DNA of 64,000 nucleotides from a virus. Below are positions 14,495-59,110 of the stretch, piece by piece (within the stretch, counting starts at the first letter, position 1; each line of letters opens with the position of its first letter). A program made the position numbers and the translations under genes. The DNA lies in the IMG/VR virus record IMGVR_UViG_3300045996_002876, positions 42,315-106,314 of that record; one strand, given 5' to 3'. Below the pieces are notes generated by a model, which saw only the letters and a program-made list of their open reading frames with translations, did no database searches and had not been told where the DNA came from.

Positions 14495-15004
14495 GTGTCT
14501 TACGGCCCGGACCCGTTCCAAGAGACGATTCGTTACTTCGACGCCCCGACCGCCTACTGGGCAGGGCTTTTCGACGGCGAGGGATCGGTTGGAATCAACA
14601 GGAAGGCCATAAGAGGCAAGCAGAAGCGGTTCAGCTATCAGTGCGAAGCCAAGCTGACGATGTGCGACGAGGATATTGTTTACGCATTCAGCGCGGCCTT
14701 CGACGGCACGTTCGGGGTCCGGTACCCGAAAAAGGCCAATGTCTCCGTCGCCTATACGAGCGGGCTGGGAGGGAGGAAGTGCCTGGCCTTCCTCACCAAG
14801 ATCCTCCCTCACGCGAGGGTGAAGAAGAAGGAGATCGAGGTCGCTATTGAGTACCTGCACTGGCAGAAAGCCCTCACCGGGTTCGACCAGAAAACCACCT
14901 ACCGGTACACGGAGGAAGATAAGAGGTACCAGGCTCTGATGAGACGCCTCTTGCACGACCTCAAGCCTGGTTTCTCGGCGACAAAAGTCCCGTTCAAAGA
15001 CTGA
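14495..15004 (+). CDS. LAGLIDADG-type homing endonuclease
   Basis: 169 residues. The first catalytic motif reads YWAGLFDGEGSVGI, a LAGLIDADG variant, near residue 20. Only one is clear, so it probably works as a dimer. The gene looks less G+C-rich than its neighbours, has AGA/ATA/TTT codons they avoid, and fits between two gene units without damaging them, which marks it as a recent insertion. GTG 14495 has a strong AGGAGG site. Confidence 0.75.
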   Translation: MSYGPDPFQETIRYFDAPTAYWAGLFDGEGSVGINRKAIRGKQKRFSYQCEAKLTMCDEDIVYAFSAAFDGTFGVRYPKKANVSVAYTSGLGGRKCLAFLTKILPHARVKKKEIEVAIEYLHWQKALTGFDQKTTYRYTEEDKRYQALMRRLLHDLKPGFSATKVPFKD

Positions 15005-33600: not shown

Positions 33601-35196
33601 TTAGTCGGCGATCTCGAGGCCGGCGGCGGCCATCACGGTCCGGGCCGCCCGGCCGGGGGAGCCGGCCCGCAGGTCGGTCAGTTCCGTCAGGGCCTCGGCC
33701 TCGTCCTGGGTGGCGTTGTTCCAGAAGGAGATCATGACCTCCTGGGGGTCGGTCTGGAGGGGGGCCCCGTCGGCCTCCGGGTCCCACAGGACCCGGTGGT
33801 CGTCGACGTCCACCCACAGGACCGGGTTGAGGCTGGCGTCCACGTACCCGGAGTCGGCCAGCGGGTGGTACGGGCTCCGGGCGTCCAGGTGGGCCAGGAG
33901 CAGGTCCTCGGCCATCCGCCGGTCGGCGGCCGCCCCGCCGGCGTCCGGAGGGGTCTCGGCCGGGTCCGGATCGACCGGGAAGTCGACCTCCCCGTCCAGC
34001 CCGACCCCCCGCTGAAAGGCCTCGACGGCCTCGTCCAGGGACCGGGGCTCGGCCGGAACGAACCCGGTCAGCCGGGGTGGCGTCGGCCGGTCGTCCGCCA
34101 GCACCTCGGCCAGGGGCCGGCCGGACAGCTCGGCCCGGACGGCCTCCGGGATGGCCCGGGTGGTCACGTCGTGCAGGCTGACCGCCGGGCTCGTCCCGGC
34201 CGGGGCGTCCGGGAGGGCCTTGAAGGTGGTGACCGACGACCCGGACCGGTAGGTCGTTCGGGTGACCTCCCGCCGCCCGCCGGCGGTGACCTCCGTCCAG
34301 GTGACCGAACTCAGGACGTCCGCCGGGCCCCCCTTGGCTTTCCGGTCCGCGTCGCCGGCGTCCGCCGGGGCGGTCGGAGGGGCGGGGCTTTTGAGGGCGG
34401 CCGGGACCGGGGTGTCGAAGTCCCCCTCGTACAGGGCGTGGTTGGTCCCGGCGTAGGCCCCGGCGTAGGCCCCGGCGTACCCGCCCTGCCAGGTCTTGCG
34501 GCTGGCGTACGTCCCGACGTCGAGCCGGCCGTACGCCCGGCACTTGTCCCAGGCCCCGTCGGTCACGTCGTACACGACCCGGCCGTCCAGGGGCTGGTGG
34601 AACCCGGGGGTCCACAGGCCGGCCGCCTCGACGGCCTCCTGGAGGTGGTCCTTCTTCGAGGACCAGGCCACCCCCATCCGGGTGCCCTTGTCGCGGAAGT
34701 CCATTCCGGCCAGGTCGCCCCCGTTGAAGAAGCAGACCCGCCACCGGCGGTCGCGGGAGTCGAACCACTCGATCGCCCCGTACGCCTCGACGTCGTCCAG
34801 GGACCGGCCCTCGGCCAGGTGGGCGAAGATGTGGGTCGAGTCGACGGCGAACGCCCGGTCGTACTTCCGGTTGAGCTCGGCGTGGTTGGCCACACACCCG
34901 TTGTGGGCCCCGACCACCGGGCCGACGACGAACGGGTGGGCGTTCTCCTTGGACTGCTCCCCGGTCGACGGGTACCGGGTGTGCAGGAACCCGCGGGGCT
35001 GGAGGGCCCAGTTGGTCCCGTACTGGGCCAGGAAGAGGGCCATGGTCTCGGCCCCCTTGCGGACCTTCTTGCCGTCGAACACCCCGTACCCCTTGCCCCC
35101 GCGGGCGTCGTTGTAGACCCCGAGGCCGAGGGCCAGGGCCCGCCGGGCCACCCGGCTCGGGGGGTTGCGCCACGCCCAACCTGCTATTCCGCACAC
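33601..35196 (-). CDS. Class II glutamine amidotransferase-domain protein (531 aa)
   Basis: GTG 35196 gives MCGIAG, so removal of Met exposes catalytic Cys2 of an Ntn-type glutaminase. Further motifs: FLHTRYPSTGE (70-80), AHPF (86-89), VGAHNGCVANH with oxyanion Asn99 (95-105), FAVDSTH (116-122) and FFNGGDLAG. The enzyme would release ammonia from glutamine. Residues about 290-531 are not recognised; three GAYA units (about 250-260) join the parts. The next gene upstream is an inserted HNH endonuclease, then an amidoligase, a plausible ammonia user. An asparagine-synthetase or glucosamine-type synthase domain is not visible. Confidence 0.8.
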   Translation of the reverse strand: MCGIAGWAWRNPPSRVARRALALGLGVYNDARGGKGYGVFDGKKVRKGAETMALFLAQYGTNWALQPRGFLHTRYPSTGEQSKENAHPFVVGPVVGAHNGCVANHAELNRKYDRAFAVDSTHIFAHLAEGRSLDDVEAYGAIEWFDSRDRRWRVCFFNGGDLAGMDFRDKGTRMGVAWSSKKDHLQEAVEAAGLWTPGFHQPLDGRVVYDVTDGAWDKCRAYGRLDVGTYASRKTWQGGYAGAYAGAYAGTNHALYEGDFDTPVPAALKSPAPPTAPADAGDADRKAKGGPADVLSSVTWTEVTAGGRREVTRTTYRSGSSVTTFKALPDAPAGTSPAVSLHDVTTRAIPEAVRAELSGRPLAEVLADDRPTPPRLTGFVPAEPRSLDEAVEAFQRGVGLDGEVDFPVDPDPAETPPDAGGAAADRRMAEDLLLAHLDARSPYHPLADSGYVDASLNPVLWVDVDDHRVLWDPEADGAPLQTDPQEVMISFWNNATQDEAEALTELTDLRAGSPGRAARTVMAAAGLEIAD

Positions 35197-35201
35197 GAGT
35201 A

Positions 35202-35699
35202 TTAGACCTTTCTGCCCTTGCGGGGCTTAACAGGTTTGGTGAGGACTTCGATTCCGGTAAGTCCTCGAATAATCCGATTTCTCAAGGTCGACGCCTTCTT
35301 GACCAAACAGCGGGGGTCTTTCAGCCAACCTTCGACGGACTTCGTCTCCCCGAAAGCCGTCACCGTCCACTTCCGGAAGACGTCTTGGGCCCTGCTCGAG
35401 TTGGCCGACATGGTTCGCCAGTGGCAGTTTTCGGGGCAATAGTCCCTGTCCGATCGCTCACGGTCTATGGTGAGCCCCTCGTGGTACCCGGAGGATTCGG
35501 CCCACTCTCGGAATTCGACGAAGGCCCTCCAGGCGTCACACACTTTCACGCCCTTGGCACCGTACCAACGATAAGCCTTACAACTTTCGTGGTGACACCT
35601 CTTGATCATCGCGTGCCAGACCCAGTACAGCTTGGTCGCGGACCCGCCGTGGGCGCCGGGGCGACTAAACCCTTTCCGGTCTTTTGGGATCCCGCTCAC
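35202..35699 (-). CDS. HNH-type homing endonuclease
   Basis: 165 residues from GTG 35699. LYWVWHAMIKRCHHESCKAY, WYGAKGVKVCDAWRAFVEF, GLTIDRERSDRDYCPENCHW and RTMSANSSRAQD are the blocks of the phage HNH family that usually carries an AP2-like end. It looks less G+C-rich than the two genes it separates (glutaminase and amidoligase) and sits between their stop and start without damaging either. A mobile insertion into that pair is the simplest reading. Confidence 0.8.
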   Translation of the reverse strand: MSGIPKDRKGFSRPGAHGGSATKLYWVWHAMIKRCHHESCKAYRWYGAKGVKVCDAWRAFVEFREWAESSGYHEGLTIDRERSDRDYCPENCHWRTMSANSSRAQDVFRKWTVTAFGETKSVEGWLKDPRCLVKKASTLRNRIIRGLTGIEVLTKPVKPRKGRKV

Positions 35700-35701
35700 C
35701 T

Positions 35702-37588
35702 CTAAAATTCCTCGTACGGCGGGGCCTCGTGCCCGGCGAACTTCGCCTTCCGCTCCTCGAGCCAGGCCCGGACGTCGTCCGACGGGGCGACGGCCAGGAG
35801 GGCCTGCCAGGGGTCGCGGGGGAGGCCGTTGATCCGGTCCGTCGGCCAGGCGGTGGCCACGTGCAGGAGGTTGTCCCACAGGAGGGCCCAGGGGACGATC
35901 TTCTGCGGGTCGGTCGTCCCGGCCGCCAGCCGGCACTCGACCGTCCCCCGCCGCTTGCCCACCAGGGTCCGGTCCCGGCCCCGGCGGTCGAGGGTGTCCT
36001 TCGGGGTGTAGAAGTGGGCGTGCAGGTTGAGGGCGTAGTACCGGGCGGTGGCGTAGTGGTCGCGGGCCTGCTCCAGGTAGGCGGCCCCGGTCCGCCGCGG
36101 GCAGGGCTCGGTCGCCAGCAGGTTCCCGTCGGCGTCGAACCGGTCGATGACCCGGTTCAGGCTCGTACTCCCGAGCCCGCCGTAGACGGCCAGCCGGGCC
36201 AGGTGGCGGGTCCGGGCCTTCTGCCGGCCCCGGACGGCCTTCTCCGGGCACCCCCAGTACACGTACTTGTCCGGCTTCACGAGGTAGGCCCGGACGGCGG
36301 CCAGGAGCTTCTGCCCGCACTTCTCGCAGAAGTTCTTGCCGTCCCGGGTGTACGCGGAGTTCCGCCGCCGGCTGTCCGGGACGGCCAGGAACAGCCCGTC
36401 CTCGACGCGGGCGTACACCTCGACCAGGCGGAGGATCTGGGCCGAGCTCAGGTCCCGGCTGTCGGCGTGGACGTGCAGGCCGCACCGGGCGTTCACCCAG
36501 GCCCCGGCCGCCCGCAGGCTCCGGCACACGTCCTCCACCTGGTCGATAAACGGCTTGCCCCGGGCCGGGGACAGGTTGATCTCGAACCCGGAGGGCGGGA
36601 GGCTCCCGTCGTACACGACCGAGGCGTTCCAGCGGGCGCAGGCGTCGGCCACCCGGTGGGCCCGGCGGGCGTCCTTGAGCCCCCCGACCTCGAGCTCGAC
36701 CGACAGGTACCGGCGGGGGCCGCCGCCGGCCAGGGCCCGGCGGTGGGCGGCCCGGAGGGCGGCCAGGGGGGCCTCCTCGCGGGCCAGGGCCTCGGCGTAA
36801 GCCCACCGGTCGACCGGGTCGGCCCGTCGCTGTTCCCGGCGGAACTTCTCGGCCCGCTGTTCGACGGCGGCCGGGTCGGGCGGGTAGAAGGTCAGGGGCC
36901 GGCGGATCCAGTCGGGGCGGGTCGAGGCGTACGCCCGGCGGTCCTCCCGGTGGGCCTCGGCGGCGTGGGTGTCGTGGTCCTGGCCCGGGCGGAAGACGTT
37001 GGCCTCCGGGGGCGGGAGGGCGGCCGGGTCGAGGGGGGCGCAGGTACAGGCCGGGAGCCGGCACTCCGGGCAGCACCGGCAGGTCGTCCGCTGGCACCGG
37101 GGGCAGCAGTCGCAGGCCGCCGGGTACCGGGACGCGTGCCCGCAGACCCGGCAGGCGAGGTACCCGTCGGCCCGCCGCCGGTACCGGGCCGCGTCGAACG
37201 AGCCCGGCGGGTTGATGGCGGCGGCCGGGTCGTGGGCCGGGGCCGGGCGGCAGGCCGGGCAGGCCCCGCCCGCCAGGGGCTCGTCACACCCGGGGCACCG
37301 GGGGCAGTCGCAGTCCTCCGGGGTGTTCGCGCAGGTGTCACACGCCGGGGCGGACTCTTCGTCCTCGTCCGGGTCGTCTTCGTCGCCCTCCCACGCGTCG
37401 TCGGCGTAGAGGTCGTCCTCGTCGTCGACCGGGGCGGCGGGCGTCTCCGGGATCGGCATGGGGGACTCCGGGGGTTGGGGGAGGATGAAAAACCGGGGGT
37501 CGACCGGGATCGCCAGGTCCGCGAACTCGACCTCCCACGGGCCGCTCGTCGTTGTAACCGCGGTCCAGGCGTTCGGCGTATCGGGCAC
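35702..37588 (-). CDS. Amidoligase (glutamine synthetase-fold COOH-NH2 ligase) with zinc ribbons
   Basis: 628 residues. An acidic linker (55-80) leads to two cysteine-rich regions (CDTC...CPGC...CPAC at 83-113; CRVCGH...CCPRC...CCPEC...CTC at 146-183). From 283 the Amidoligase_2 pattern begins: RYLSVELEVGG, PSGFEINLSPA, ARCGLHVHAD (357-366), then GTVECRLAAGTTDPQKIVPW near 570. Acidic and His residues in these blocks bind ATP-Mg in related ligases. It would join a carboxylate to an amine; the substrate is unknown. It pairs with the glutaminase at 33601. Confidence 0.75.
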   Translation of the reverse strand: MPDTPNAWTAVTTTSGPWEVEFADLAIPVDPRFFILPQPPESPMPIPETPAAPVDDEDDLYADDAWEGDEDDPDEDEESAPACDTCANTPEDCDCPRCPGCDEPLAGGACPACRPAPAHDPAAAINPPGSFDAARYRRRADGYLACRVCGHASRYPAACDCCPRCQRTTCRCCPECRLPACTCAPLDPAALPPPEANVFRPGQDHDTHAAEAHREDRRAYASTRPDWIRRPLTFYPPDPAAVEQRAEKFRREQRRADPVDRWAYAEALAREEAPLAALRAAHRRALAGGGPRRYLSVELEVGGLKDARRAHRVADACARWNASVVYDGSLPPSGFEINLSPARGKPFIDQVEDVCRSLRAAGAWVNARCGLHVHADSRDLSSAQILRLVEVYARVEDGLFLAVPDSRRRNSAYTRDGKNFCEKCGQKLLAAVRAYLVKPDKYVYWGCPEKAVRGRQKARTRHLARLAVYGGLGSTSLNRVIDRFDADGNLLATEPCPRRTGAAYLEQARDHYATARYYALNLHAHFYTPKDTLDRRGRDRTLVGKRRGTVECRLAAGTTDPQKIVPWALLWDNLLHVATAWPTDRINGLPRDPWQALLAVAPSDDVRAWLEERKAKFAGHEAPPYEEF

Positions 37589-39642: not shown

Positions 39643-39877
39643 GGACTTCGATCTCCTTGAGCTCGAACCCGACTTCGTACGGGCCGTCGTAGCTCTCGAT
39701 GGGGTAGCGGTTCTTGGGGTCGGCTTGCTCGGCCCGGAAGGTCGCGTTGAGGCGGTCGAGTTCGGCTTCGGCCCGGCCGCGGTCGGCGAACCCGGTGGTC
39801 GGGGCGTCGTAGTTCTCGGCGCTGTAGCACTGGTCGTTGTACTCGTAGGCGATCGGAACGATGACGTAGGCCTTCAC
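39635..39877 (-). CDS. Hypothetical protein (80 aa)
   Basis: 80 residues from GTG 39877 with a strong AGGAGG site. KAYVIVPIAYEYNDQCYSAE, then AEAELDRLNATFR and a closing EVGFELKEIEVHE. Alpha/beta, acidic. Not recognised. Confidence 0.6.
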   Translation of the reverse strand: MKAYVIVPIAYEYNDQCYSAENYDAPTTGFADRGRAEAELDRLNATFRAEQADPKNRYPIESYDGPYEVGFELKEIEVHE

Positions 39878-40704
39878 GCAGAACCTCCTTGGCCGAAGTT
39901 GTTGGTCGCCGCCACGGCCCTCTCGTACTTCCGGGGAAGGTAGACAGTGGCCCGGCGGTAGAGTTCGGTTATTACGGATCGGGCGAATTTGTCCGAGGTG
40001 CCGAACTGGAAGATCGAGTAGTGCGGCCGAATCCTCGAGCGACACCCCGTGAGTCGGACGCAGTATTCGCGGAAGGCATCTACGATCGGAAGGCTTCCGA
40101 CCAGGCCGACCTTGTACTGGCGCCGGCCGTCGTGGACCCCGAGAGAGATGTATCCGTCACCGTCTACCAGCCCCCGAAAGTAGTCTTTGCGGAGGTAGTC
40201 CGGTATCGTCCCCTTCTGAGGGGGCGATAGGGTCAGTGACTTCCTGGGGGTGACGCCCAGTGAGATCAGGCGTTCGACCATGTGTGGACTGCTGAAGGCC
40301 ACCTGGTACGCCTGTTTGGCGTTGGCGTACCCCCTGCCGAGCTTGACTTTTGTGATGGTGTTCTTACACCCCAGGTGGGACCGAAAGACACTCAGGTGGT
40401 CTAAGTCCCGCTCGGACAACGACAGGCTTACGGTGTTCTTGGTTCTCCATTTGTCGGTGTTCCTGTACACGCACCCGTCCGCCGTTAGGAAGCCCAGCCA
40501 GTAGGCCTTCTCCGGGGCGTCGATCGCGTCGAAGTAGGTGTGGTGGCACGAGCCGACTTCTCGTGGGCGGCACGTTCCGAGAACGGTCCGGACGGCGTGG
40601 TAGGCCGTGGCAAGAGAGCATCCGAACTTGGCGACCAAATCGTTCAGGGAGGCTCCCCCGGAATACTCAGCGGCCAGAGCCTCGTAGTCGTACTTCTTCG
40701 CCAG
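39874..40704 (-). CDS. LAGLIDADG homing endonuclease (276 aa)
   Basis: 276 residues if translation starts at CTG 40704, 6 nt after AAGGA; no ATG, GTG or TTG lies between there and the upstream stop. DYEALAAEYSGGASLNDLVA is a helix-turn-helix. Two LAGLIDADG motifs follow: YWLGFLTADGCVY and YFRGLVDGDGYISL. So it is a monomeric double-motif enzyme. It looks less G+C-rich than its neighbours, a sign of insertion. Confidence 0.8.
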   Translation of the reverse strand: MAKKYDYEALAAEYSGGASLNDLVAKFGCSLATAYHAVRTVLGTCRPREVGSCHHTYFDAIDAPEKAYWLGFLTADGCVYRNTDKWRTKNTVSLSLSERDLDHLSVFRSHLGCKNTITKVKLGRGYANAKQAYQVAFSSPHMVERLISLGVTPRKSLTLSPPQKGTIPDYLRKDYFRGLVDGDGYISLGVHDGRRQYKVGLVGSLPIVDAFREYCVRLTGCRSRIRPHYSIFQFGTSDKFARSVITELYRRATVYLPRKYERAVAATNNFGQGGSA

Positions 40705-40705
40705 G

Positions 40706-41206
40706 TTAGTCCTTATCTGTCGTCTTGGTGGCGGTCGTCTTTTTGGTGGCCGCGATCCGGCTGAAGGACGGTGGGTGCCCGAGGCCCGCCATCCAATTCT
40801 TGAACTCCATGTCCTGGAGGAAATCCTGGGCCGTCGGGATGTACCCACGGAGGTCTTCCTTGATATGCTGCTCGCCTACCTCGCGGGTGGAGACGGCCTT
40901 TATGTACCCCTGGCGGACCAGTTCCCGCTGTTCGATTTCGATCTGGATCTTCAGGTTCCGGACCTTCGCCAGGTGGAGTTCCAGGATGGCCCGGTGGTCC
41001 GGCTTGGCGGGGATCAGGACCTCGTGCCCGAGGGCCCGCTCCAGGACGGTCGAGAGGAACCAGGACTGGTGGGTGAGGGCCCGGTGCCTGTTGTCGGGGA
41101 GCGACCCCTTGCTCGAGTCGAGAAAGTCGTGTACCGGAAGGTACGCGGAGGGTTCGCCCCCGAACTTCCGGGCGGACGACTCGGCGTGGATAATTGGCTT
41201 GGCCAT
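40706..41206 (-). CDS. DUF6915-like phage protein (166 aa)
   Basis: 166 residues from ATG 41206. HAESSARKFGGEPSAYLPVH, DFLDSSKGSLPDNRHRALTH, VLERALGHEV, then REVGEQHIKEDLRGYIPTAQ are the family blocks. The basic end (KKTTATKTTDKD) is variable. Function unknown; members are common in phages and plasmids. A longer upstream frame is noise. Confidence 0.7.
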   Translation of the reverse strand: MAKPIIHAESSARKFGGEPSAYLPVHDFLDSSKGSLPDNRHRALTHQSWFLSTVLERALGHEVLIPAKPDHRAILELHLAKVRNLKIQIEIEQRELVRQGYIKAVSTREVGEQHIKEDLRGYIPTAQDFLQDMEFKNWMAGLGHPPSFSRIAATKKTTATKTTDKD

Positions 41207-42766: not shown

Positions 42767-43267
42767 TCAGACGGCCACGCCCCGGGCGGCCAGTCGGGCC
42801 AGGCCGACGGCCAGGTACTCCTGGCACAGCCGGACGGACCGGAACCCGATCCAGCTCGGGTTCTTGTGGGTGACCACCTCGGCCGTGTGCAGGAAGGGGT
42901 CCCAGGAGTCCCCGGCCGGGGCCGGGAGGGCGGCCGCGACGGCCTCGAACAGGGGGTCCGGGAGGTCCTGCGACCGGCCCAGGGGATCGTACCCCCGGCC
43001 CATCAGGTAGGCCGGGAACTGGCCGTCCCGGAGGTGGGCCGCGTTGTCCAGGTGGGGGCACTTGCCCCGGTCGGCCAGCCACCGGAGGGCGGCGGCGTAC
43101 TCGGGGTCGCCCTCGAGATCGACCCAGTCGGCGTAGACCCGCCGGGCGTCCTGGTCGGGCGGGACCCGGCGGAGGGCCGTTTCGTGCAGGCGACTCCGGT
43201 AGGCCCGGCGGCGGAACAGTTCGGCCGGGAGGACGACCCCTTCGGGCGGGAGCGGGGGCGGGGGCAT
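42767..43267 (-). CDS. TIGR02996-like protein (166 aa)
   Basis: 166 residues. The stretch ARRVYADWVDLEGDPEYAAA resembles the core of the TIGR02996 repeat-companion motif (RLVYADWLEE-GDP) seen in Gemmata-like planctomycetes, but lacks its acidic lead. The remainder is helical (LFEAVAAALPAP; VRLCQEYLAVGLARLAARG). CCAAAGTG immediately follows the stop. Confidence 0.5.
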   Translation of the reverse strand: MPPPPLPPEGVVLPAELFRRRAYRSRLHETALRRVPPDQDARRVYADWVDLEGDPEYAAALRWLADRGKCPHLDNAAHLRDGQFPAYLMGRGYDPLGRSQDLPDPLFEAVAAALPAPAGDSWDPFLHTAEVVTHKNPSWIGFRSVRLCQEYLAVGLARLAARGVAV

Positions 43268-47136: not shown

Positions 47137-49731
47137 TTACTTTTGCCCGGCCGGTACCCCGTACAGGGCCGTGCGGCGGAGGCGGCGGTAGTGACTGTAC
47201 CGGACCCGCCCGGCGGCCCGGAAGCGGGTCACGTCCCCCGGCCGCTCGCGGCGGGCCAGGATCCGGCGGGCCTTGGCGGCCGTCCGCGGGTTGGCGGACT
47301 GGGCCAGGACGTACAGGCGGGTGAGGGCCAGGGGGCGGGCGATCGGCTCCTTGGCCGGCGGGGCCTCGGTGGTCCGGACGACCTGGGCCGGGCGGGCGAT
47401 GCCCGTGGCCCGTTCGACGCACTTCCGGGCCAGGTCCAGGTAGGCGTCCCGGCGGTCCGGGCGGGCCTTGGCCAGGTCGGTGTACTTCTTCCACAGGAGG
47501 CGGTACGACTCGAGGATTCGGGCGTCCAGCGGGTCGCGGGCGACGACCTTCCTCGGCGGCGGCGGGGCGACCGGGCCGGCCATGGACGCGAGGTCGACGG
47601 GGGCGGGTCCCCCCTTCGTGCCGCGGACCGCGTCGTGGACGGTGGCGTGGGCCGCCCGTATCTCGGCCGTGAAGTCGGCGACCACGTCGTCGGGCAGGCC
47701 GGCCTCCCGGACCCGGCGGTCCAGGGTGTCCAGGTGGGCGGCGATCCGGGCCTCGGCCTCGGCCTCCGGGGAGGCGAACGCCTCGGGGGCGAACCGGTGG
47801 TCGGCCGCGTACGCCCCGGCGGAGCCGAACAGGGCCTCGGGGGCGAAGGCCAGCTTCTCCCACCGCTCCTCGGCCAGGAGCTGGCGGACGGTCTGGAGCT
47901 CGGCCCAGCACCGTTTCCAGGTGCCCCAGGCGGTCGCCGGGCAGTCGAGCGGCTTGGGCCGCAGGTGGACGGCCTTCCCGCCCTCCCCCTTGAACGACCG
48001 GGGCGGGACGTAGGCCCCGTTCTTCCGGTCGAACCAGAGGAACTTGGCCAGGGCCCGCTCGGGCAGGGGCACGTCGGCCGGCACGGCCATGAGTTTCCGG
48101 CGGGCCGAGCGGCTCGGGAGGGAGTCGGGCCGGCTGGTCTTGTTGACGAACAGGCTCCGCTCGGATCCGTCCGGGAGGGTCCAGGTTAGCCACTGGCCCC
48201 CGCGGGCGTACACCCAGAGTTTCCGTTCGTCCCGCGACATGCCCTCGGACCGGCCGGGGACCACGGCCTTCTTGTCGCCGTCCCAGTGGCGGTTCCACTG
48301 CGACAGCGGGCAGAAGTCCTCGGCGACGGTCCACGGACGGAGGGGTTTCGGGACGAACGTGTCGTCCTTGAGCTCGACCAGCTCGGCCTCGTCGAACGCC
48401 AGGACCCCCCGCTCGTCGGCGACCCGGTAGCACCCGGCCGGCTGGTCGGCCACGTCGTGCGCGACCCCGTGGGCCTCGAGCTGGGCGACGATCGCGGGCA
48501 GGTGGTCGGCGGTCGGGTGGAAGTCCCACTCCTCGTAGCTGGCCAGGCCCTCGGGGACGGGGAGGTAGGCGGTGACCGGGTTGGGGTCGGCCGCCCCCTT
48601 GCGGCGGGGCTCGCCGGCCCGCCGGCGGAGGTCCCCCCGGCCGCTCACCTGCCCGCACGTGACGAACGGGCTCGGGTCGTCGTCCACCCGCGGGGCCGTC
48701 TTGCGGCGGAGGAGGGTCGACCCCTCGTGGTACTTGCGGAGCTTGACCTTCCGGCCGTCCGGGGTCTCGTGGTCGAACGTCCGCCCCTGGTCCCGCAGGT
48801 TGGCCATGGCCGGGTCGTCGACCGAGCCCATGAAGGTGGCGTCCCAGAGGACCTCGTCGGCCTTCTCCAGGGGGACCTGGCGGCGGGGGCCCTTGGGGTT
48901 CTTCTTGACCCAGGCCGGGTGGTCGGGCCGCTCGAACGGCTCGTGGGCGGACAGCTCGCCCTGGGTCCGGACGTCCTGGGCCTCGGCCCATCGGTCGAGT
49001 TGGGCCCGCAGGCCGGCCCCGCCGCCGTACCGGTGGCGGAGGTACGTGCGGAGGTTCTCGAGCAGGTTCCACCCGTTCTCGGTCGTCCGCCCGTCGACGG
49101 CGAAGTGGTTCCCGCGGTCGAGGAGTAGGGCGTACTCGGCCAGGAGGGAGTCGAGGCCGGCGGCCGACAGGTCGGCGAAGGCGTACCCGGCCCGCCAGTT
49201 GGTCCGGCGGGGGAGGCGGTCGACGATCCAGTCGGGGAACGACCAGCGGGCGCTGAACCGCCAGTTACACTTCGGGTTCCGGGTCGCCGTGAGCCAGGCC
49301 CCCAGGGCCCGGACGGCGGGCGGGACGGCCAGGGGGCTGGTGACGGCGTAGAAGGTGTCGGGGAGGGCGGCCCCGGGGCGGACGAGGACGGCCTTCAGGG
49401 GGATGACGTCGGGCTCGGCCTGGGCGAACAGGAGGTCCTCCCAGCGGTCCGGGGACGGGGTTTTGACCACGTCGAGGAGGGTGGTCGTCCGGCCGGACTT
49501 CCGGGGGCTGGTGTCGAGCCACTTGAGGAGGTCGAGGTCGGGGGTGTCGGACCCCCAGGTCAGGAGGCGGACCTTGTTCTTGGTGAACGTCTTGTCGACC
49601 TCGAACGGGTCGCCGGCGACGAAGGCCCTGGGGCCGGCGTGGACGCGGGTGTCCGGGCGGGCCCCGACGGCGGCCTCCCGGTAGTCGGGGGTGAAGGTGA
49701 ACTCCCCGTGGGTGACGGCGTGCGTGCTCAT
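47137..49731 (-). CDS. Large protein of unknown function (864 aa)
   Basis: The longest gene in the window. No known domain is recognised. Notable stretches: VDKTFTKNKVRLLTWGSDTP, RKSGRTTTLLDVVKTPSPDR, WSFPDWIVDRLPRRTNWRAG, LRTYLRHRYGGGAGLRAQLD, a basic C-terminus (RYSHYRRLRRTAL). No signal peptide, membrane helix, Walker or nuclease motif. Flanking spacers each carry the AAAGTAA element, so it is probably its own transcription unit. A virion-internal or host-interaction protein is possible; nothing in the sequence decides. Confidence 0.7.
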   Translation of the reverse strand: MSTHAVTHGEFTFTPDYREAAVGARPDTRVHAGPRAFVAGDPFEVDKTFTKNKVRLLTWGSDTPDLDLLKWLDTSPRKSGRTTTLLDVVKTPSPDRWEDLLFAQAEPDVIPLKAVLVRPGAALPDTFYAVTSPLAVPPAVRALGAWLTATRNPKCNWRFSARWSFPDWIVDRLPRRTNWRAGYAFADLSAAGLDSLLAEYALLLDRGNHFAVDGRTTENGWNLLENLRTYLRHRYGGGAGLRAQLDRWAEAQDVRTQGELSAHEPFERPDHPAWVKKNPKGPRRQVPLEKADEVLWDATFMGSVDDPAMANLRDQGRTFDHETPDGRKVKLRKYHEGSTLLRRKTAPRVDDDPSPFVTCGQVSGRGDLRRRAGEPRRKGAADPNPVTAYLPVPEGLASYEEWDFHPTADHLPAIVAQLEAHGVAHDVADQPAGCYRVADERGVLAFDEAELVELKDDTFVPKPLRPWTVAEDFCPLSQWNRHWDGDKKAVVPGRSEGMSRDERKLWVYARGGQWLTWTLPDGSERSLFVNKTSRPDSLPSRSARRKLMAVPADVPLPERALAKFLWFDRKNGAYVPPRSFKGEGGKAVHLRPKPLDCPATAWGTWKRCWAELQTVRQLLAEERWEKLAFAPEALFGSAGAYAADHRFAPEAFASPEAEAEARIAAHLDTLDRRVREAGLPDDVVADFTAEIRAAHATVHDAVRGTKGGPAPVDLASMAGPVAPPPPRKVVARDPLDARILESYRLLWKKYTDLAKARPDRRDAYLDLARKCVERATGIARPAQVVRTTEAPPAKEPIARPLALTRLYVLAQSANPRTAAKARRILARRERPGDVTRFRAAGRVRYSHYRRLRRTALYGVPAGQK

Positions 49732-51224: not shown

Positions 51225-51452
51225 TCACTTTGGCCCCGGCTTCCACCGGTCGTGGAGAACCAGGACCTCCCAGAAGCCCAGCTTGACCCACAGGCGGTAC
51301 CAGCGGACGTCGGTCTTGGTCACCGTCCCCGAGTTGTCGCGGAGGGCGGTCGCCGAGTCCCGGCAGGCCCCGACCCCGAACTCGATCCTGGGCATTTGCT
51401 CAGTCGTGTCCTCCCGGATCGGGAGGAGGCGGATTCGGGTCGAGCTGGCCAT
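51225..51452 (-). CDS. Hypothetical protein (75 aa)
   Basis: 75 residues, starting 52 nt inside the HNH gene in another frame. RIEFGVGACRDSATALRDNS, WYRLWVKLGFWEVLVLHD. Not recognised. Confidence 0.55.
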   Translation of the reverse strand: MASSTRIRLLPIREDTTEQMPRIEFGVGACRDSATALRDNSGTVTKTDVRWYRLWVKLGFWEVLVLHDRWKPGPK

Positions 51453-51975
51453 GGGGTGTCCCCTTTCGGAACCCGCGGGTGAGGCGGGAGATCGTGGGCT
51501 GGGTCGTGTTCCACTTGGCGGCCGCTTCCCGCTGGGTCATGCCTGACTCGAGGTCGGCCAGGATCTTCGGGATGTCGGCGTCCGGGATACGGGCCCTGGG
51601 ATGGCGTTCCCCGACGGCGGCGGTCCCGTGCCGGTCCTGGTCGGCCCGGTTCTCGGCCTTGGTCCCCCACCGGAGGTTGTCGGCCCGGTTGTTGGCCGGG
51701 TTCCCGTCCCCGTGCAGGACCTCGTACCCGGGGCCGGGCTTCGGGCCGTGGAAGGCGGTACAGACCAGGACGTGGGCCGCCTGGGTCCGGCCGTCGCAGG
51801 ACACCTGGAGGTAGCCCTCGCGGGTGACCTTGGTCTTGAGGGGCGTCCACCCCTCGTCGTCCGTCTCGTCGGTCGACAGGAAGCTGGTCCAGCACGTCCC
51901 GTCGAAGGCGAACCGGTACCCGGGCAGGTCGGGGATCTCGGCGAAGAAGCGGATGTCCGGGTCGACTATGAACAG
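51400..51975 (-). CDS. HNH endonuclease with C-terminal HTH (191 aa)
   Basis: The HNH block is RTQAAHVLVCTAFHGPKPGP, HGDGNPANNRADNLRWGTKA; then a helix-turn-helix, MTQREAAAKWNTTQPTISRL, like NUMOD modules. The first in-frame ATG (51804) cuts into the domain; the reading frame stays open and meaningful (IPDLPGYRFAFDGTCWTSFL) to CTG 51975, preceded by AAAGGGG. I take CTG as start. Its 3' end overlaps the next gene by 52 nt. Confidence 0.75.
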   Translation of the reverse strand: MFIVDPDIRFFAEIPDLPGYRFAFDGTCWTSFLSTDETDDEGWTPLKTKVTREGYLQVSCDGRTQAAHVLVCTAFHGPKPGPGYEVLHGDGNPANNRADNLRWGTKAENRADQDRHGTAAVGERHPRARIPDADIPKILADLESGMTQREAAAKWNTTQPTISRLTRGFRKGTPHGQLDPNPPPPDPGGHD

Positions 51976-52586: not shown

Positions 52587-52707
52587 GACGGTACCCCGCC
52601 AGGAGGCCGAGGGTCAGGAGGGCGAGGAGGGCCCGGAGGCGGGAGCGGTGGCGGGCCCGGGCGGCGGCCAGGCGTTCCTCCAGGTAGTAGTCGGGGAGCG
52701 TGTTCAC
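52579..52707 (-). CDS. Very small membrane protein (42 aa)
   Basis: 42 residues from GTG 52707: basic helix (EERLAAARARHRSRLRALL) running into a membrane segment (LLALLTLGLLAGY). GTGA overlap with the upstream gene and an 8-nt overlap downstream. Confidence 0.5.
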   Translation of the reverse strand: MNTLPDYYLEERLAAARARHRSRLRALLALLTLGLLAGYRHA

Positions 52708-53261
52708 GAGACGGCCTCCTCGAGGGCGAGACGGTGTTCGATCTTTTCCCGGTCCTCCGGGCGGAACAGGTTGAAGACGGGGATCCCCTCGTGGGCGGCG
52801 AGCTGGACGGCACAGGCGGTCCCGCCCTGGGGCTTCCCGTCCATCTCCGGGCACCAGCAGACGACGAACTTGGACGGCGGGTCGCCGGGCATGCCGAGGA
52901 CTTGGGCCACGTTCCGCCCCATGAGGGGGACGATGTTGGGGGCCTCGGTCTTGGGCCGGATCTTCAGGGCCACCAGGACCTTGTGGTTGGCCGCCCACCG
53001 GGCCCTGTCGCACACGTCCTCCCCGAGGACCGGCATGCCCGGGTCGTCCCCGTATTTGTCCTGGCCGAACCGGGGCCACGGGAGGTAGACCACGGCTTTC
53101 CGGTTGGCCCCGACCTCGAAGGCCCGGTCGGCCCCCTGGGCATGGCCCGAGCGGAGGGTCCACCCCTGGGCCCGGAGGTAGGCCGCGACCCGGGTCATGA
53201 GGGCCAGGACGTCCGGCGGGGTCTGACGACTCCCGATCCCCGCGTAAAACTTCTCACTCAT
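52704..53261 (-). CDS. SLOG/DprA-like Rossmann-fold nucleotide-binding protein (185 aa)
   Basis: 185 residues. YAGIGSRQTPPDVLALMTRV, AQGWTLRSGHAQGADRAFEV, the GxxxGADxxF phosphate-binding loop, then KFVVCWCPEMDGKPQGGTAC and LAAHEGIPVFNL. This is the YspA/DprA-related SLOG group frequent in phages. It probably binds a nucleotide or nucleotide-derived signal; the ligand and purpose are unknown. Confidence 0.75.
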   Translation of the reverse strand: MSEKFYAGIGSRQTPPDVLALMTRVAAYLRAQGWTLRSGHAQGADRAFEVGANRKAVVYLPWPRFGQDKYGDDPGMPVLGEDVCDRARWAANHKVLVALKIRPKTEAPNIVPLMGRNVAQVLGMPGDPPSKFVVCWCPEMDGKPQGGTACAVQLAAHEGIPVFNLFRPEDREKIEHRLALEEAVS

Positions 53262-53300: not shown

Positions 53301-53687
53301 TCAGCAGGAGCACCGGAAGTACTTGTTCACCACGTCCCGGAGCCTGACCCGCTTCCCGGTCGCCGTCTGCCAGTTCTCGAAGACGTCGGCCCGGAAGTGC
53401 TCGTCGTCCTCGAGGTCGTCCATCAGGGAGCTCGACCCGTGGCACAGGTTGTCTTCGACGATCAGCCGGACGGATTCCTTCCAGTCGGCCGCGTACAGGC
53501 CGTACTTCTCGTGGACGTTGACCCGGAGCCAGTCCTCGGCGTCCCGGACGGCTTTCGTCCACCGCCGGTGGTAGGCGGCCTCCTCGGGGCGGCCTTGCTC
53601 ATCCAGCCAGTCGGCGAACACCTTGTGCGGGGCCTCGTCGTCCGGGGCCGCGGCCAGGGCCGCGAGGAAGGCCTGTTCGTCGGTCAT
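53301..53687 (-). CDS. TIGR02996 repeat-companion domain protein (128 aa)
   Basis: 128 residues. The first 45 (EQAFLAALAAAPDDEAPHKV, FADWLDEQGRPEEAAYHR) are a textbook TIGR02996 domain, known from large Gemmata-like protein families. The C-terminal 80 residues (DLEDDEHFRADVFENWQTAT, ending YFRCSC) are related to the end of the neighbouring gene at 53689 (PSFFRCAC), so the two are paralogues. Confidence 0.8.
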   Translation of the reverse strand: MTDEQAFLAALAAAPDDEAPHKVFADWLDEQGRPEEAAYHRRWTKAVRDAEDWLRVNVHEKYGLYAADWKESVRLIVEDNLCHGSSSLMDDLEDDEHFRADVFENWQTATGKRVRLRDVVNKYFRCSC

Positions 53688-53688
53688 G

Positions 53689-54363
53689 TCAGCACGCGCA
53701 CCGGAAGAAGGATGGGCGGTGTTTGCGGTCGGGTTCGGTCCGGCGGTACGGGGCGGTCCAGTCCGCTCCGGGCCTTTCCCACCCCCGCGGGACGAGCCCG
53801 GTCACGACCTCGAAGTGGGCCCAGAATTCGGACGGGACGTCGTAGTCCCGGTCCCCCGTGTGAATGCTTTGTGTCCGCCCGTCCCCTTCACAGTGGGAGC
53901 GGGCGACGGCCATCAGGGTGGCGTAGTCGACCGACTCCCACGAGGGCCCGGACGCCCAGGAGTAGCTGTTGGCGAAGTCCTCGAGCCACTGTTTCGACTC
54001 CCGCCAGCGGCGGTATCGGTCGGCCTCGTCTTCCCGCCCGCGCTCGTCCAGCCAGTCGGCGAAGACGAGCCGGGGGGCGTCGTCCTCGGGGGCCTGCTGG
54101 ACGGCGAGGAGGAAGGCTTCTTCGTCGCTACTCATGGCCGGCGGCCTCCAGGTGGGCGTCGTCGATCCCGGGGAGGGCGAGCCCGAGGCGTCGGCCCGGT
54201 AGTTTTCGTCCGCCACGGGCGGCCAGGTGAGGCGGGTTCGGACGAGGGCCTCCTCCCCGGAGTCCCCGAGGTCGTGCAGGAGGTCGGCGTAGGCCCCCCA
54301 GGGGGCGTCGTCCTCCTTGCGGGCCAGGCAGGCGGCCAGGAGCATCGAGCGGGTGTCATTCAT
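53689..54363 (-). CDS. Double TIGR02996-domain protein (224 aa)
   Basis: 224 residues with two copies of the motif: a degenerate one at 8-45 (LLAACLARKEDDAPWGAYAD, LLHDLGDSGEEA) and a canonical one at about 79-120 (EEAFLLAVQQAPEDDAPRLV, FADWLDERGREDEADRYRR). The C-terminus FRCAC matches the adjacent paralogue (FRCSC). Probably duplicated in the phage after capture from the host. Confidence 0.75.
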   Translation of the reverse strand: MNDTRSMLLAACLARKEDDAPWGAYADLLHDLGDSGEEALVRTRLTWPPVADENYRADASGSPSPGSTTPTWRPPAMSSDEEAFLLAVQQAPEDDAPRLVFADWLDERGREDEADRYRRWRESKQWLEDFANSYSWASGPSWESVDYATLMAVARSHCEGDGRTQSIHTGDRDYDVPSEFWAHFEVVTGLVPRGWERPGADWTAPYRRTEPDRKHRPSFFRCAC

Positions 54364-55379: not shown

Positions 55380-55988
55380 CTACGCCCCGGCCGGGACGGG
55401 GGCGGGGAGGACGAGGGGCGTCGGCTTCTTCGGGGGCTTGACCAGGTCGCAGTCCCAGTGGTTCTCGAACCGGTCGGGGGCGTCCGGGACGAGCGGGTAC
55501 ACCAGGCTCCGCTTGACCAGGCCGACGGCCCAGAGCAGGTAGTGGTAGTCGATCCGGGCGTTGAACAGGCGGACCTCGACGCGGTTCTCGGCCACCTGGT
55601 GGACGGCCTCGCGGGAGTAGTTGGTCTCCCCCTTCTTCCAGGCGAAGCTCCGCCGCTGGGGCCAGACCCGGATCTTGGGCAGGCGGACCCGCAGGTACGG
55701 GGCGGCGTCGTCCGACACGTGGACGTGCAGGCCGCACTCCTTGTTCGTGTAGCACCCGGCGGCCGTCAGGACCTCGAGGACCGTGCGGGTCGTCCGCCAG
55801 TCCGGGTTGACCGGGCTGGTGACCTCGGCGTTGTCCCCGCCGAAGGTGTCGTCCCAGGTCAGGCCCCAGTACTCGCCGGGGTTCTTGTGGGTCAGGACGC
55901 ACGGGACCCCGGCGTTGGTCAGCGGGGTGACCAGGGCCTGGTACGGCACGCCGACGGTCTCGAGCTCGAACCCGAATTTCACGCTCAT
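55380..55988 (-). CDS. Second amidoligase (COOH-NH2 ligase fold, 202 aa)
   Basis: 202 residues: KFGFELETVGVPYQAL, EVTSPVNPDWRTTRTVLEVL, NKECGLHVHVSDDAAPYLRV and ENRVEVRLFNARIDYHYLLW. The E-x-E pair, CGLHVH and E-x-R-x-F are the Amidoligase_2 ATP-Mg and substrate motifs. It is a compact version of the enzyme at 35702, without zinc ribbons. A cyclotransferase-like gene follows two genes upstream (56278), which fits glutamyl-amide chemistry. Confidence 0.75.
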   Translation of the reverse strand: MSVKFGFELETVGVPYQALVTPLTNAGVPCVLTHKNPGEYWGLTWDDTFGGDNAEVTSPVNPDWRTTRTVLEVLTAAGCYTNKECGLHVHVSDDAAPYLRVRLPKIRVWPQRRSFAWKKGETNYSREAVHQVAENRVEVRLFNARIDYHYLLWAVGLVKRSLVYPLVPDAPDRFENHWDCDLVKPPKKPTPLVLPAPVPAGA

Positions 55989-56140: not shown

Positions 56141-56293
56141 TCACCCAGGGTGGATGAAGAGGGCGTACAGTTCGGCGACCACGGCCCTTCGGCGGGCCTC
56201 CAGGCGGAACTCCTCGTCCAGGGACAGGGGGTGGGCGAGCATGAACTCCAGGGCGTCGAGCTCGTCTCGGATGTCGGTTATCGTGCGGGGCAT
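56141..56293 (-). CDS. Small helical protein (50 aa)
   Basis: 50 residues from ATG 56293, overlapping the cyclotransferase end by 16 nt: TDIRDELDALEFMLAHPLSL, DEEFRLEARRRAVVAELYAL. Two acidic-basic helices. Not recognised. Confidence 0.55.
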   Translation of the reverse strand: MPRTITDIRDELDALEFMLAHPLSLDEEFRLEARRRAVVAELYALFIHPG

Positions 56294-56649
56294 GGGGGCC
56301 TCCTCGGGGGGTGCCAGGTGTCGTGCGGGTAGGGGTCGCTGGCGGCGGCCAGGGTCGGGCCCATCAGGTAGGCCTGGGCGGTGCCCCCGTCGGCCAGGGG
56401 GACGGGGGTCCGGCGGTAGGTCCGGGGGTGGCCCTCGACGGCGTCCAGGCGGCGGAGGCAGGCGTCGTCGACGGCCCACACCTCGCCCTGGATTGACCGG
56501 CGGCCGGCGATCAGGCCTGGGATGGTCCGGAAGGACACGAGTTCGAACCCCGGGGCGGTCCGGGCCTCGCGGACGAAGGCCTGGCCCCACAGGAGGCCGT
56601 GGTTGGCGAACCCCCGCTTGAGGGAGCCGTAGACGAACAGGTGGGTCAC
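56278..56649 (-). CDS. Gamma-glutamylcyclotransferase/AIG2-like protein (123 aa)
   Basis: 123 residues from GTG 56649. The substrate loop HLFVYGSLKRGFANHG (YGSL), then IQGEVWAVDDACLRRLDAVE with the catalytic Glu in 'LDAVEG', and YRRTPVPLADGGTAQAYLM are the family blocks at full length. Such enzymes release 5-oxoproline from gamma-glutamyl amines. Located near the second amidoligase. Confidence 0.8.
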   Translation of the reverse strand: MTHLFVYGSLKRGFANHGLLWGQAFVREARTAPGFELVSFRTIPGLIAGRRSIQGEVWAVDDACLRRLDAVEGHPRTYRRTPVPLADGGTAQAYLMGPTLAAASDPYPHDTWHPPRRPPCPAR

Positions 56650-58460: not shown

Positions 58461-58661
58461 TCAGGACCAGGAGGACCCCTTCCGGTTCGGCATGTACCCG
58501 CCGACGTGGTCGCACAGGGCCCCACACCGGGGGCACTTGACCGACCCGGCCTTGAACATCTCGTGCCGCGGGGAGGCGAAGGTGTGCCCGCAGGTCAGGT
58601 CCCGACACTTCATCTTCGCCCCCTTGGAGGGCTTCTTGTTCGTCTGCTTTCGGCGCTTCAC
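58461..58661 (-). CDS. Zinc-ribbon protein (66 aa)
   Basis: 66 residues from GTG 58661. Basic start (KRRKQTNKKPSKGAKMK), then CRDLTCGHTFASPR and KCPRCGALCDHVGGYM, a zinc ribbon plus extra Cys/His. Likely nucleic-acid binding. Confidence 0.6.
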   Translation of the reverse strand: MKRRKQTNKKPSKGAKMKCRDLTCGHTFASPRHEMFKAGSVKCPRCGALCDHVGGYMPNRKGSSWS

Positions 58662-59110
58662 TCGTCGGACCTCCGGTGGCGGACCGTGTACATGAACTCG
58701 ACCTCCCCCACGGGGAACAGTTCCTTGGCGGCGTGCAGGGACAGCCCCTGGTCGAGCCGGCGGAAGAGGTCCTTCCTCTGCTCGGCCGTCAGCCGGCGTA
58801 GCCGCCGGCTGACGGCCCCGGTGGGGTCCAGGGCCACCAGGTTGTCGGGCCGGACGTTCTTCGGGTCCCCGTCGAGGAACCCGATCGTCTCGTCGTGCCC
58901 GAGGCCCCCGTGGAAGGTCCACCAGACGACCTCCTCGACCTTCACCCAGTACTGCTGGCCCCCTTGGGAGAGGCCGACCCGGCCACCGGGCCGCGTCTTG
59001 AGGACGCGGCCGGTGGCCCGGGAGGTGACGGTCCCGTCGGGGGAGCACCGGTAGTTTTCGAACCCGGGGACGAGCGGGGGCTTCGGGCCCCCCGGGGAGT
59101 CAGCAGTCAC
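58658..59110 (-). CDS. NUMOD4/HNH-like protein, probably inactive (150 aa)
   Basis: 150 residues from GTG 59110. VPGFENYRCSPDGTVTSRAT resembles a NUMOD4 lead, and VEEVVWWTFHGGLGHDETIG, FLDGDPKNVRPDNLVAL occupy the HNH position, but the first histidine is replaced and 'DGDPKN..DNL' alone is retained. The end (LTAEQRKDLFRRLDQGLSLH) is a helix-turn-helix. It looks like a decayed or repurposed homing endonuclease. A good promoter precedes it. Confidence 0.6.
   Translation of the reverse strand: MTADSPGGPKPPLVPGFENYRCSPDGTVTSRATGRVLKTRPGGRVGLSQGGQQYWVKVEEVVWWTFHGGLGHDETIGFLDGDPKNVRPDNLVALDPTGAVSRRLRRLTAEQRKDLFRRLDQGLSLHAAKELFPVGEVEFMYTVRHRRSDE

Follow-up and report, generated by a model that had tools for sequence, protein, structure and literature searches.

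A diverged phage amidoligase-glutaminase pair with an HNH endonuclease gene between its members

The amidoligase and glutaminase genes

The window analyzed here is a 64,000-nucleotide stretch of viral DNA (bases 42315-106314 of a 106-kb IMG/VR record; G+C content, 70.7%). Its minus strand carries, in this order, a predicted 628-aa Amidoligase_2 protein, that is, a GS-fold carboxylate-amine ligase (35702-37588), a free-standing HNH endonuclease gene of 165 aa (35202-35699), and a predicted 531-aa class II (Ntn) glutamine amidotransferase (33601-35196). The three genes share a GTG start and are tightly packed, with 2 nt between the ligase stop and the HNH start and 5 nt between the HNH stop and the glutaminase start, confirming the claim of an earlier note on this DNA that an HNH gene sits exactly between two genes of the same strand.

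The assignment of the first gene to the amidoligases, proposed in the earlier note together with a profile search, held up in that search, in which the protein matched Pfam Amidoligase_2 (PF12224) at an E value of 1.1e-14 (55.3 bits against a curated cut-off of 22). It also matched PHROG 2443 (amidoligase enzyme; E=7e-18). The protein consists of a cysteine-rich N-terminus (residues ~78-182) and a GS-like domain (~290-620). We scored residue conservation in an alignment of 64 amidoligases that included the window protein. Little or no variation was seen at E298/E300, D327, S329, E336, G370-L-H372-V-H374, N521, E551, and R553, nor at C369, R407, R516, and Y517. The motif blocks ExE, DGS..E, GxHxH, and ExR are all kept, and the predicted active site appears intact, given that its motif residues are conserved across the 64 sequences. 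Structure prediction, which the earlier note had suggested for both proteins, gave a confident ligase core in AlphaFold (residues 290-410 and 550-620, with block pLDDT values mostly ~90-97) and low confidence for the cysteine-rich region. The best PDB neighbors of the model in Foldseek were gamma-glutamylmethylamide synthetase (GmaS), glutamine synthetase (GS), and YbdK, with match probabilities of 0.95-1.0, yet the E value for the entire 628-aa model was only 1e-3. By sequence, no solved structure matched the amidoligase profile. The ligase thus has a predicted glutamine-synthetase-like fold. Its N-terminal region contains 21 cysteines and 9 CxxC motifs, a feature that the earlier note had considered unusual. 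This view did not hold, since a relative from a Manatee Spring siphovirus and more than 10 IMG/VR loci carry 12-22 cysteines and 3-8 CxxC motifs before the ligase domain, and a cysteine-rich N-terminus thus recurs in other phages.

The glutaminase likewise proved to be what had been proposed. It matched Pfam GATase_6 (E=3.8e-6), PHROG 4736 (annotated L-glutamine-D-fructose-6-phosphate aminotransferase; E=2.4e-13), and, in a profile comparison, GlmS (2.9e-31). The catalytic Cys2 and the glutamine-binding motifs are present (H72-T-R74, N85-x-H87-P88, H98-N99-G100, and D119-S120). Most of the corresponding columns vary little or not at all in an alignment of 22 glutaminases, in which C2, G38, H72, R74, H87, P88, H98, N99, G100, and D119 are invariant. 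The glutaminase domain of GlmS was also matched by the predicted structure in Foldseek (E=2.3e-9), together with PurF and EgtC. These results indicate a predicted class II (Ntn) fold with apparently intact catalytic motifs. The catalytic domain spans residues 1 to ~210, and the AlphaFold pLDDT is ~90 over residues 1-190 and mostly below 50 beyond residue ~217. The C-terminus had been called unknown in the earlier note, and in this it remains unplaced: we considered homology of residues 207-531 to the LUZ24-type glutaminases, which do match the N-terminal domain, and rejected it on an hhalign probability of 0.2. The C-terminus thus appears to be without known relatives, but its 320 residues are mostly modeled at low confidence, save for a strand-rich stretch at ~290-330.

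The intervening HNH gene and other homing endonucleases

The HNH protein matched PHROG 3377 (HNH endonuclease) at an E value of 1.1e-39 and has relatives in 836 phage records. Its third-position G+C content (GC3) is 0.73, compared to 0.97 for both neighboring genes; the 66 predicted genes that are 100 codons or longer average 0.945 (s.d. 0.043). Such a difference is what a recent insertion would predict. The profile match, the intergenic position, and the foreign composition all point to a free-standing HNH homing endonuclease. No HNH gene lies between the amidoligase and the glutaminase in most of the relatives examined, and single-protein searches of IMG/VR returned no close HNH-less allele of the window phage. 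The window holds at least four further homing-endonuclease-like genes, namely two LAGLIDADG and two HNH_3 genes (14495-15004 on the plus strand; 39874-40848, 51400-51804, and 58658-59110 on the minus strand), so that this genome is rich in such elements and an insertion between the pair is not special.

The description of the pair as split by a homing endonuclease was therefore correct, but the configuration is not new, having already been seen once, in Pseudomonas phage UFV-P2, where ORF23-25 are annotated as amidoligase, HNH, and glutaminase (PMC3890496). UFV-P2 and the window share the same three-gene order on one strand, with the HNH gene exactly in the gap. However, the UFV-P2 protein is of the HNH_3 type (PHROG 1872/59) and shows no BLASTP similarity to the window protein. 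We considered that both might derive from one inherited insertion and rejected this on the different PHROGs and the missing similarity; the two HNH insertions into the same amidoligase-glutaminase gap are independent. In coliphage Bas89, HNH genes lie directly after the glutaminase and within the other ligase.

Relation to a published phage cassette

The gene run found in LUZ24, tf, and UFV-P2 consists of a PF14395 ligase, an amidoligase, a glutaminase, a RimK-type ATP-grasp protein, and a gamma-glutamyl cyclotransferase. It has been published as a "peptidoglycan modification cassette," with members in RIO-1, PSA-HP1, LUZ24, PaP3, tf, phiEco32, 7-11, PA11, and CW02, and is hypothesized to counter superinfection through a changed cell surface (PMC5498523 and PMC11945000, where Iyer et al., 2009, and Hardies et al., 2013, are cited for the cassette). 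We found no report in the literature of an enzyme assay of any cassette member. The window likewise has Amidoligase_2 and glutaminase genes as neighbors in the same order, and its genome also contains a gamma-glutamyl cyclotransferase gene and one more gene for a GS-fold ligase. The window proteins, however, are only ~25-38% identical to known cassette members.

Neither the second Amidoligase_2 gene nor the cyclotransferase was mentioned in the earlier note. The ligase is a compact protein of 202 aa (55380-55988, minus strand) that matched PF12224 (E=7.8e-8; E=2.9e-9 in a profile search of its own genome) and keeps all four motif blocks (FELE, D..FGGDNAEV, GLHVH, and VEVR), in contrast to the PF14395 type found in the published cassette. 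The gamma-glutamyl cyclotransferase (GGACT/AIG2-like; GGCT) is a protein of 123 aa (56278-56649, minus strand) that matched PF06094 (E=5.2e-23) and PHROG 2520 (E=2e-14). Both genes lie on the same strand as the pair but, unlike in the published cassette, ~20 kb away, and given this distance they are tied to it by genome only. A RimK-type ATP-grasp protein was not detected: a PF08443 search of the 106-kb record, which may be a fragment, gave no match, while the control was positive in 13 of 14 genomes. The profile search of the record with PF14395 gave no match, and the control sequences likewise gave none. Most of the known cassette is thus present in this genome, without a detectable RimK-type ATP-grasp protein, and the cassette may be partial, given that no such protein was found and that the PF14395 search was empty without a positive control.

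The nearest annotated relative of both proteins comes from the Manatee Spring siphovirus (MW202637/MW202789), with 26% identity over residues 312-575 of the ligase and 38% over residues 1-144 of the glutaminase. It resembles the window in gene order and in the cysteine-rich N-terminus and differs from it in having no HNH gene, a single 43-aa ORF between the two genes, and a shorter glutaminase (352 aa). Single-protein searches of IMG/VR with the ligase, the glutaminase, the DNA polymerase, and the compact ligase returned no close relatives; the window phage is isolated within that collection. By these comparisons, the locus is a distant, strongly diverged, and apparently intact member of a known phage module rather than a new type of system. 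This version keeps a ligase, a glutaminase, and a cyclotransferase in one genome, and the ATP-grasp protein may have been lost or moved, which leaves a narrower chemistry to test.

The linkage between amidoligase and glutaminase that the earlier note had pointed to is borne out, as the two are neighbors in many phages, mostly without an HNH gene between them. In a survey of 80 IMG/VR loci, which were fetched with the amidoligase profile via one conserved motif and are not an unbiased sample, 34 of 92 amidoligase ORFs were followed on the same strand by a class II glutaminase whose start lay no more than a few hundred bases downstream, mostly at 0-80 nt. After clustering at 70% identity, the glutaminase was immediately downstream in 23 of 55 IMG/VR amidoligase clusters. 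Many of the surveyed amidoligases had no glutaminase within ~6 kb. Among isolated phages, the tf amidoligase retrieved 298 records, compared to 340 for the tf glutaminase, and the counts were nearly equal for most host genera (120 and 121 for Pseudomonas, 92 and 92 for Escherichia, 11 and 11 for Aeromonas, and 8 and 8 for Proteus). Some 300 sequenced isolates carry both genes, among them tf, phages of the common Pseudomonas aeruginosa LUZ24/PaP3 group, and the phiEco32-like coliphages. The two are direct neighbors in tf, LUZ24, Arthrobacter phage Ottawa, JB8, Bas89, and Aeromonas phage 4_4572, and in RIO-1 they share a block without being adjacent. The pair was also seen in bacterial genome loci. 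The pairing is real, conserved, and beyond chance.

We also observed a glutaminase between two Amidoligase_2 genes in eleven of the surveyed loci. The ligases there are ~600 aa and ~390 aa long, nearly all with a cysteine-rich N-terminus, and we found no description of such a two-ligase cassette around a glutaminase in the literature.

Proposed function, alternative explanations and host

Enzymes of the GS superfamily activate a carboxylate as an acyl phosphate and then form an amide. Class II glutaminases donate ammonia or, as in EgtC, hydrolyze gamma-glutamyl amides, and GGCT enzymes release 5-oxoproline from gamma-glutamyl amines. We consider it likely, if not firmly so, that the pair is the core of a phage peptidoglycan (peptide) modification cassette, with the HNH gene as a later selfish insertion. 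The analysis establishes what the proteins are, their catalytic residues and predicted folds, the conserved gene order, and the anatomy of the insertion, and from these we infer the activity, amine donor, substrate, and benefit of this cassette. The ligase, with ATP and Mg, would convert a carboxylate of a peptide or amino acid to an acyl phosphate, which an amine would attack, yielding an amide or an isopeptide bond. Ammonia could come from the glutaminase, as the earlier note proposed, or this enzyme may instead trim gamma-glutamyl groups; the cyclotransferase would remove gamma-glutamyl groups as 5-oxoproline. Early in infection, the cassette would probably act on peptides of the host cell wall or on soluble peptide precursors, and the benefit could be, for example, that superinfection is blocked. 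The HNH gene would have no part in this chemistry. We favor this reading because of the family and motif matches together with the predicted GS/YbdK and Ntn glutaminase folds, because a downstream glutaminase is conserved and the record counts per genus are nearly equal, and because GGCT and a second ligase share the genome, as in the published cassette. The HNH gene is read as a later insertion since its composition is distinct and the gap is HNH-free in most relatives examined.

For the role of the Ntn protein, we regard a different explanation as possible though doubtful. The protein could be an EgtC-like gamma-glutamyl amide hydrolase and no ammonia donor, in which case the ligase would take its amine from an amino acid rather than from ammonia, so that ligase, hydrolase, and cyclotransferase would together form a make-and-break cycle on gamma-glutamyl compounds, e.g., gamma-glutamyl or wall stem peptides. 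The EgtC structures among the Foldseek matches, a gamma-glutamyl enzyme (GGCT) encoded in the genome, and the absence of any ligase-glutaminase fusion among the 80 IMG/VR loci are all consistent with a hydrolase, and the RIO-1-like cassette paper groups the amidotransferase with degradation genes and names one ligase a gamma-glutamyl amidoligase (PMC5498523). However, the best sequence and structure matches of the protein are GlmS and PurF, which channel ammonia, and its tight, ordered pairing with the ligase is the pattern expected of an ammonia donor. The substrate could also differ from that of the preferred reading: the ligase may tag host or phage proteins rather than wall peptides, with a zinc-binding N-terminus recognizing a protein or a nucleic-acid-bound target in host takeover or counter-defense. 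The 9 CxxC motifs form a pattern common in modules that bind proteins or nucleic acids, and similar N-termini occur in several phage lineages, but the region is poorly modeled, direct evidence for a protein substrate is lacking, and no PADLOC defense model matched, so we think such tagging unlikely. A role as a defense system is likewise not supported by the PADLOC search.

It is improbable, in our view, that a phage of a Gemmata-like planctomycete carries a stripped-down cassette (two Amidoligase_2 proteins, a glutaminase, GGCT, and no ATP-grasp protein) with a zinc-binding ligase that acts on proteins or nucleic-acid-bound targets and not on wall peptides; if true, the cassette would be a general peptide-tagging toolkit and not a wall-modification system. 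Very improbable is a role for the pair as an auxiliary nitrogen-metabolism module that passes glutamine nitrogen to host amino-acid pools, a role suggested earlier for ZRK32, a phage of a planctomycete. ZRK32 encodes proteins closely related to the tf pair (46% and 51% identity), its authors report stimulated growth with nitrate or ammonium, and the window phage, too, probably infects a planctomycete. In the available part of the ZRK32 report, however, the claim is based on the growth effect of added phage, with no enzyme assay, and the ZRK32 proteins fall in the Pseudomonas LUZ24/tf group, outside the lineage of the window phage.

The inference of a planctomycete host comes from three window proteins that match TIGR02996 (rpt_mate_G_obs; 42767-43267, 53301-53687, and 53689-54363, all on the minus strand), of which two score above the curated cut-off, and from the high G+C content. 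The TIGR02996 domain is expanded in Gemmata-like planctomycetes, and its presence here suggests a Gemmata-like host, which would add a probable planctomycete phage to the known cassette carriers. A wall target for the preferred peptide-modification reading is less certain for this reason, since a planctomycete host has an atypical wall biology. Elsewhere on the minus strand, an 864-aa predicted protein (47137-49731) had no Pfam or PHROG match, and a gene at 52704-53261 encodes a predicted DprA-like DNA recombination mediator protein (PHROG 768; E=9.5e-48).
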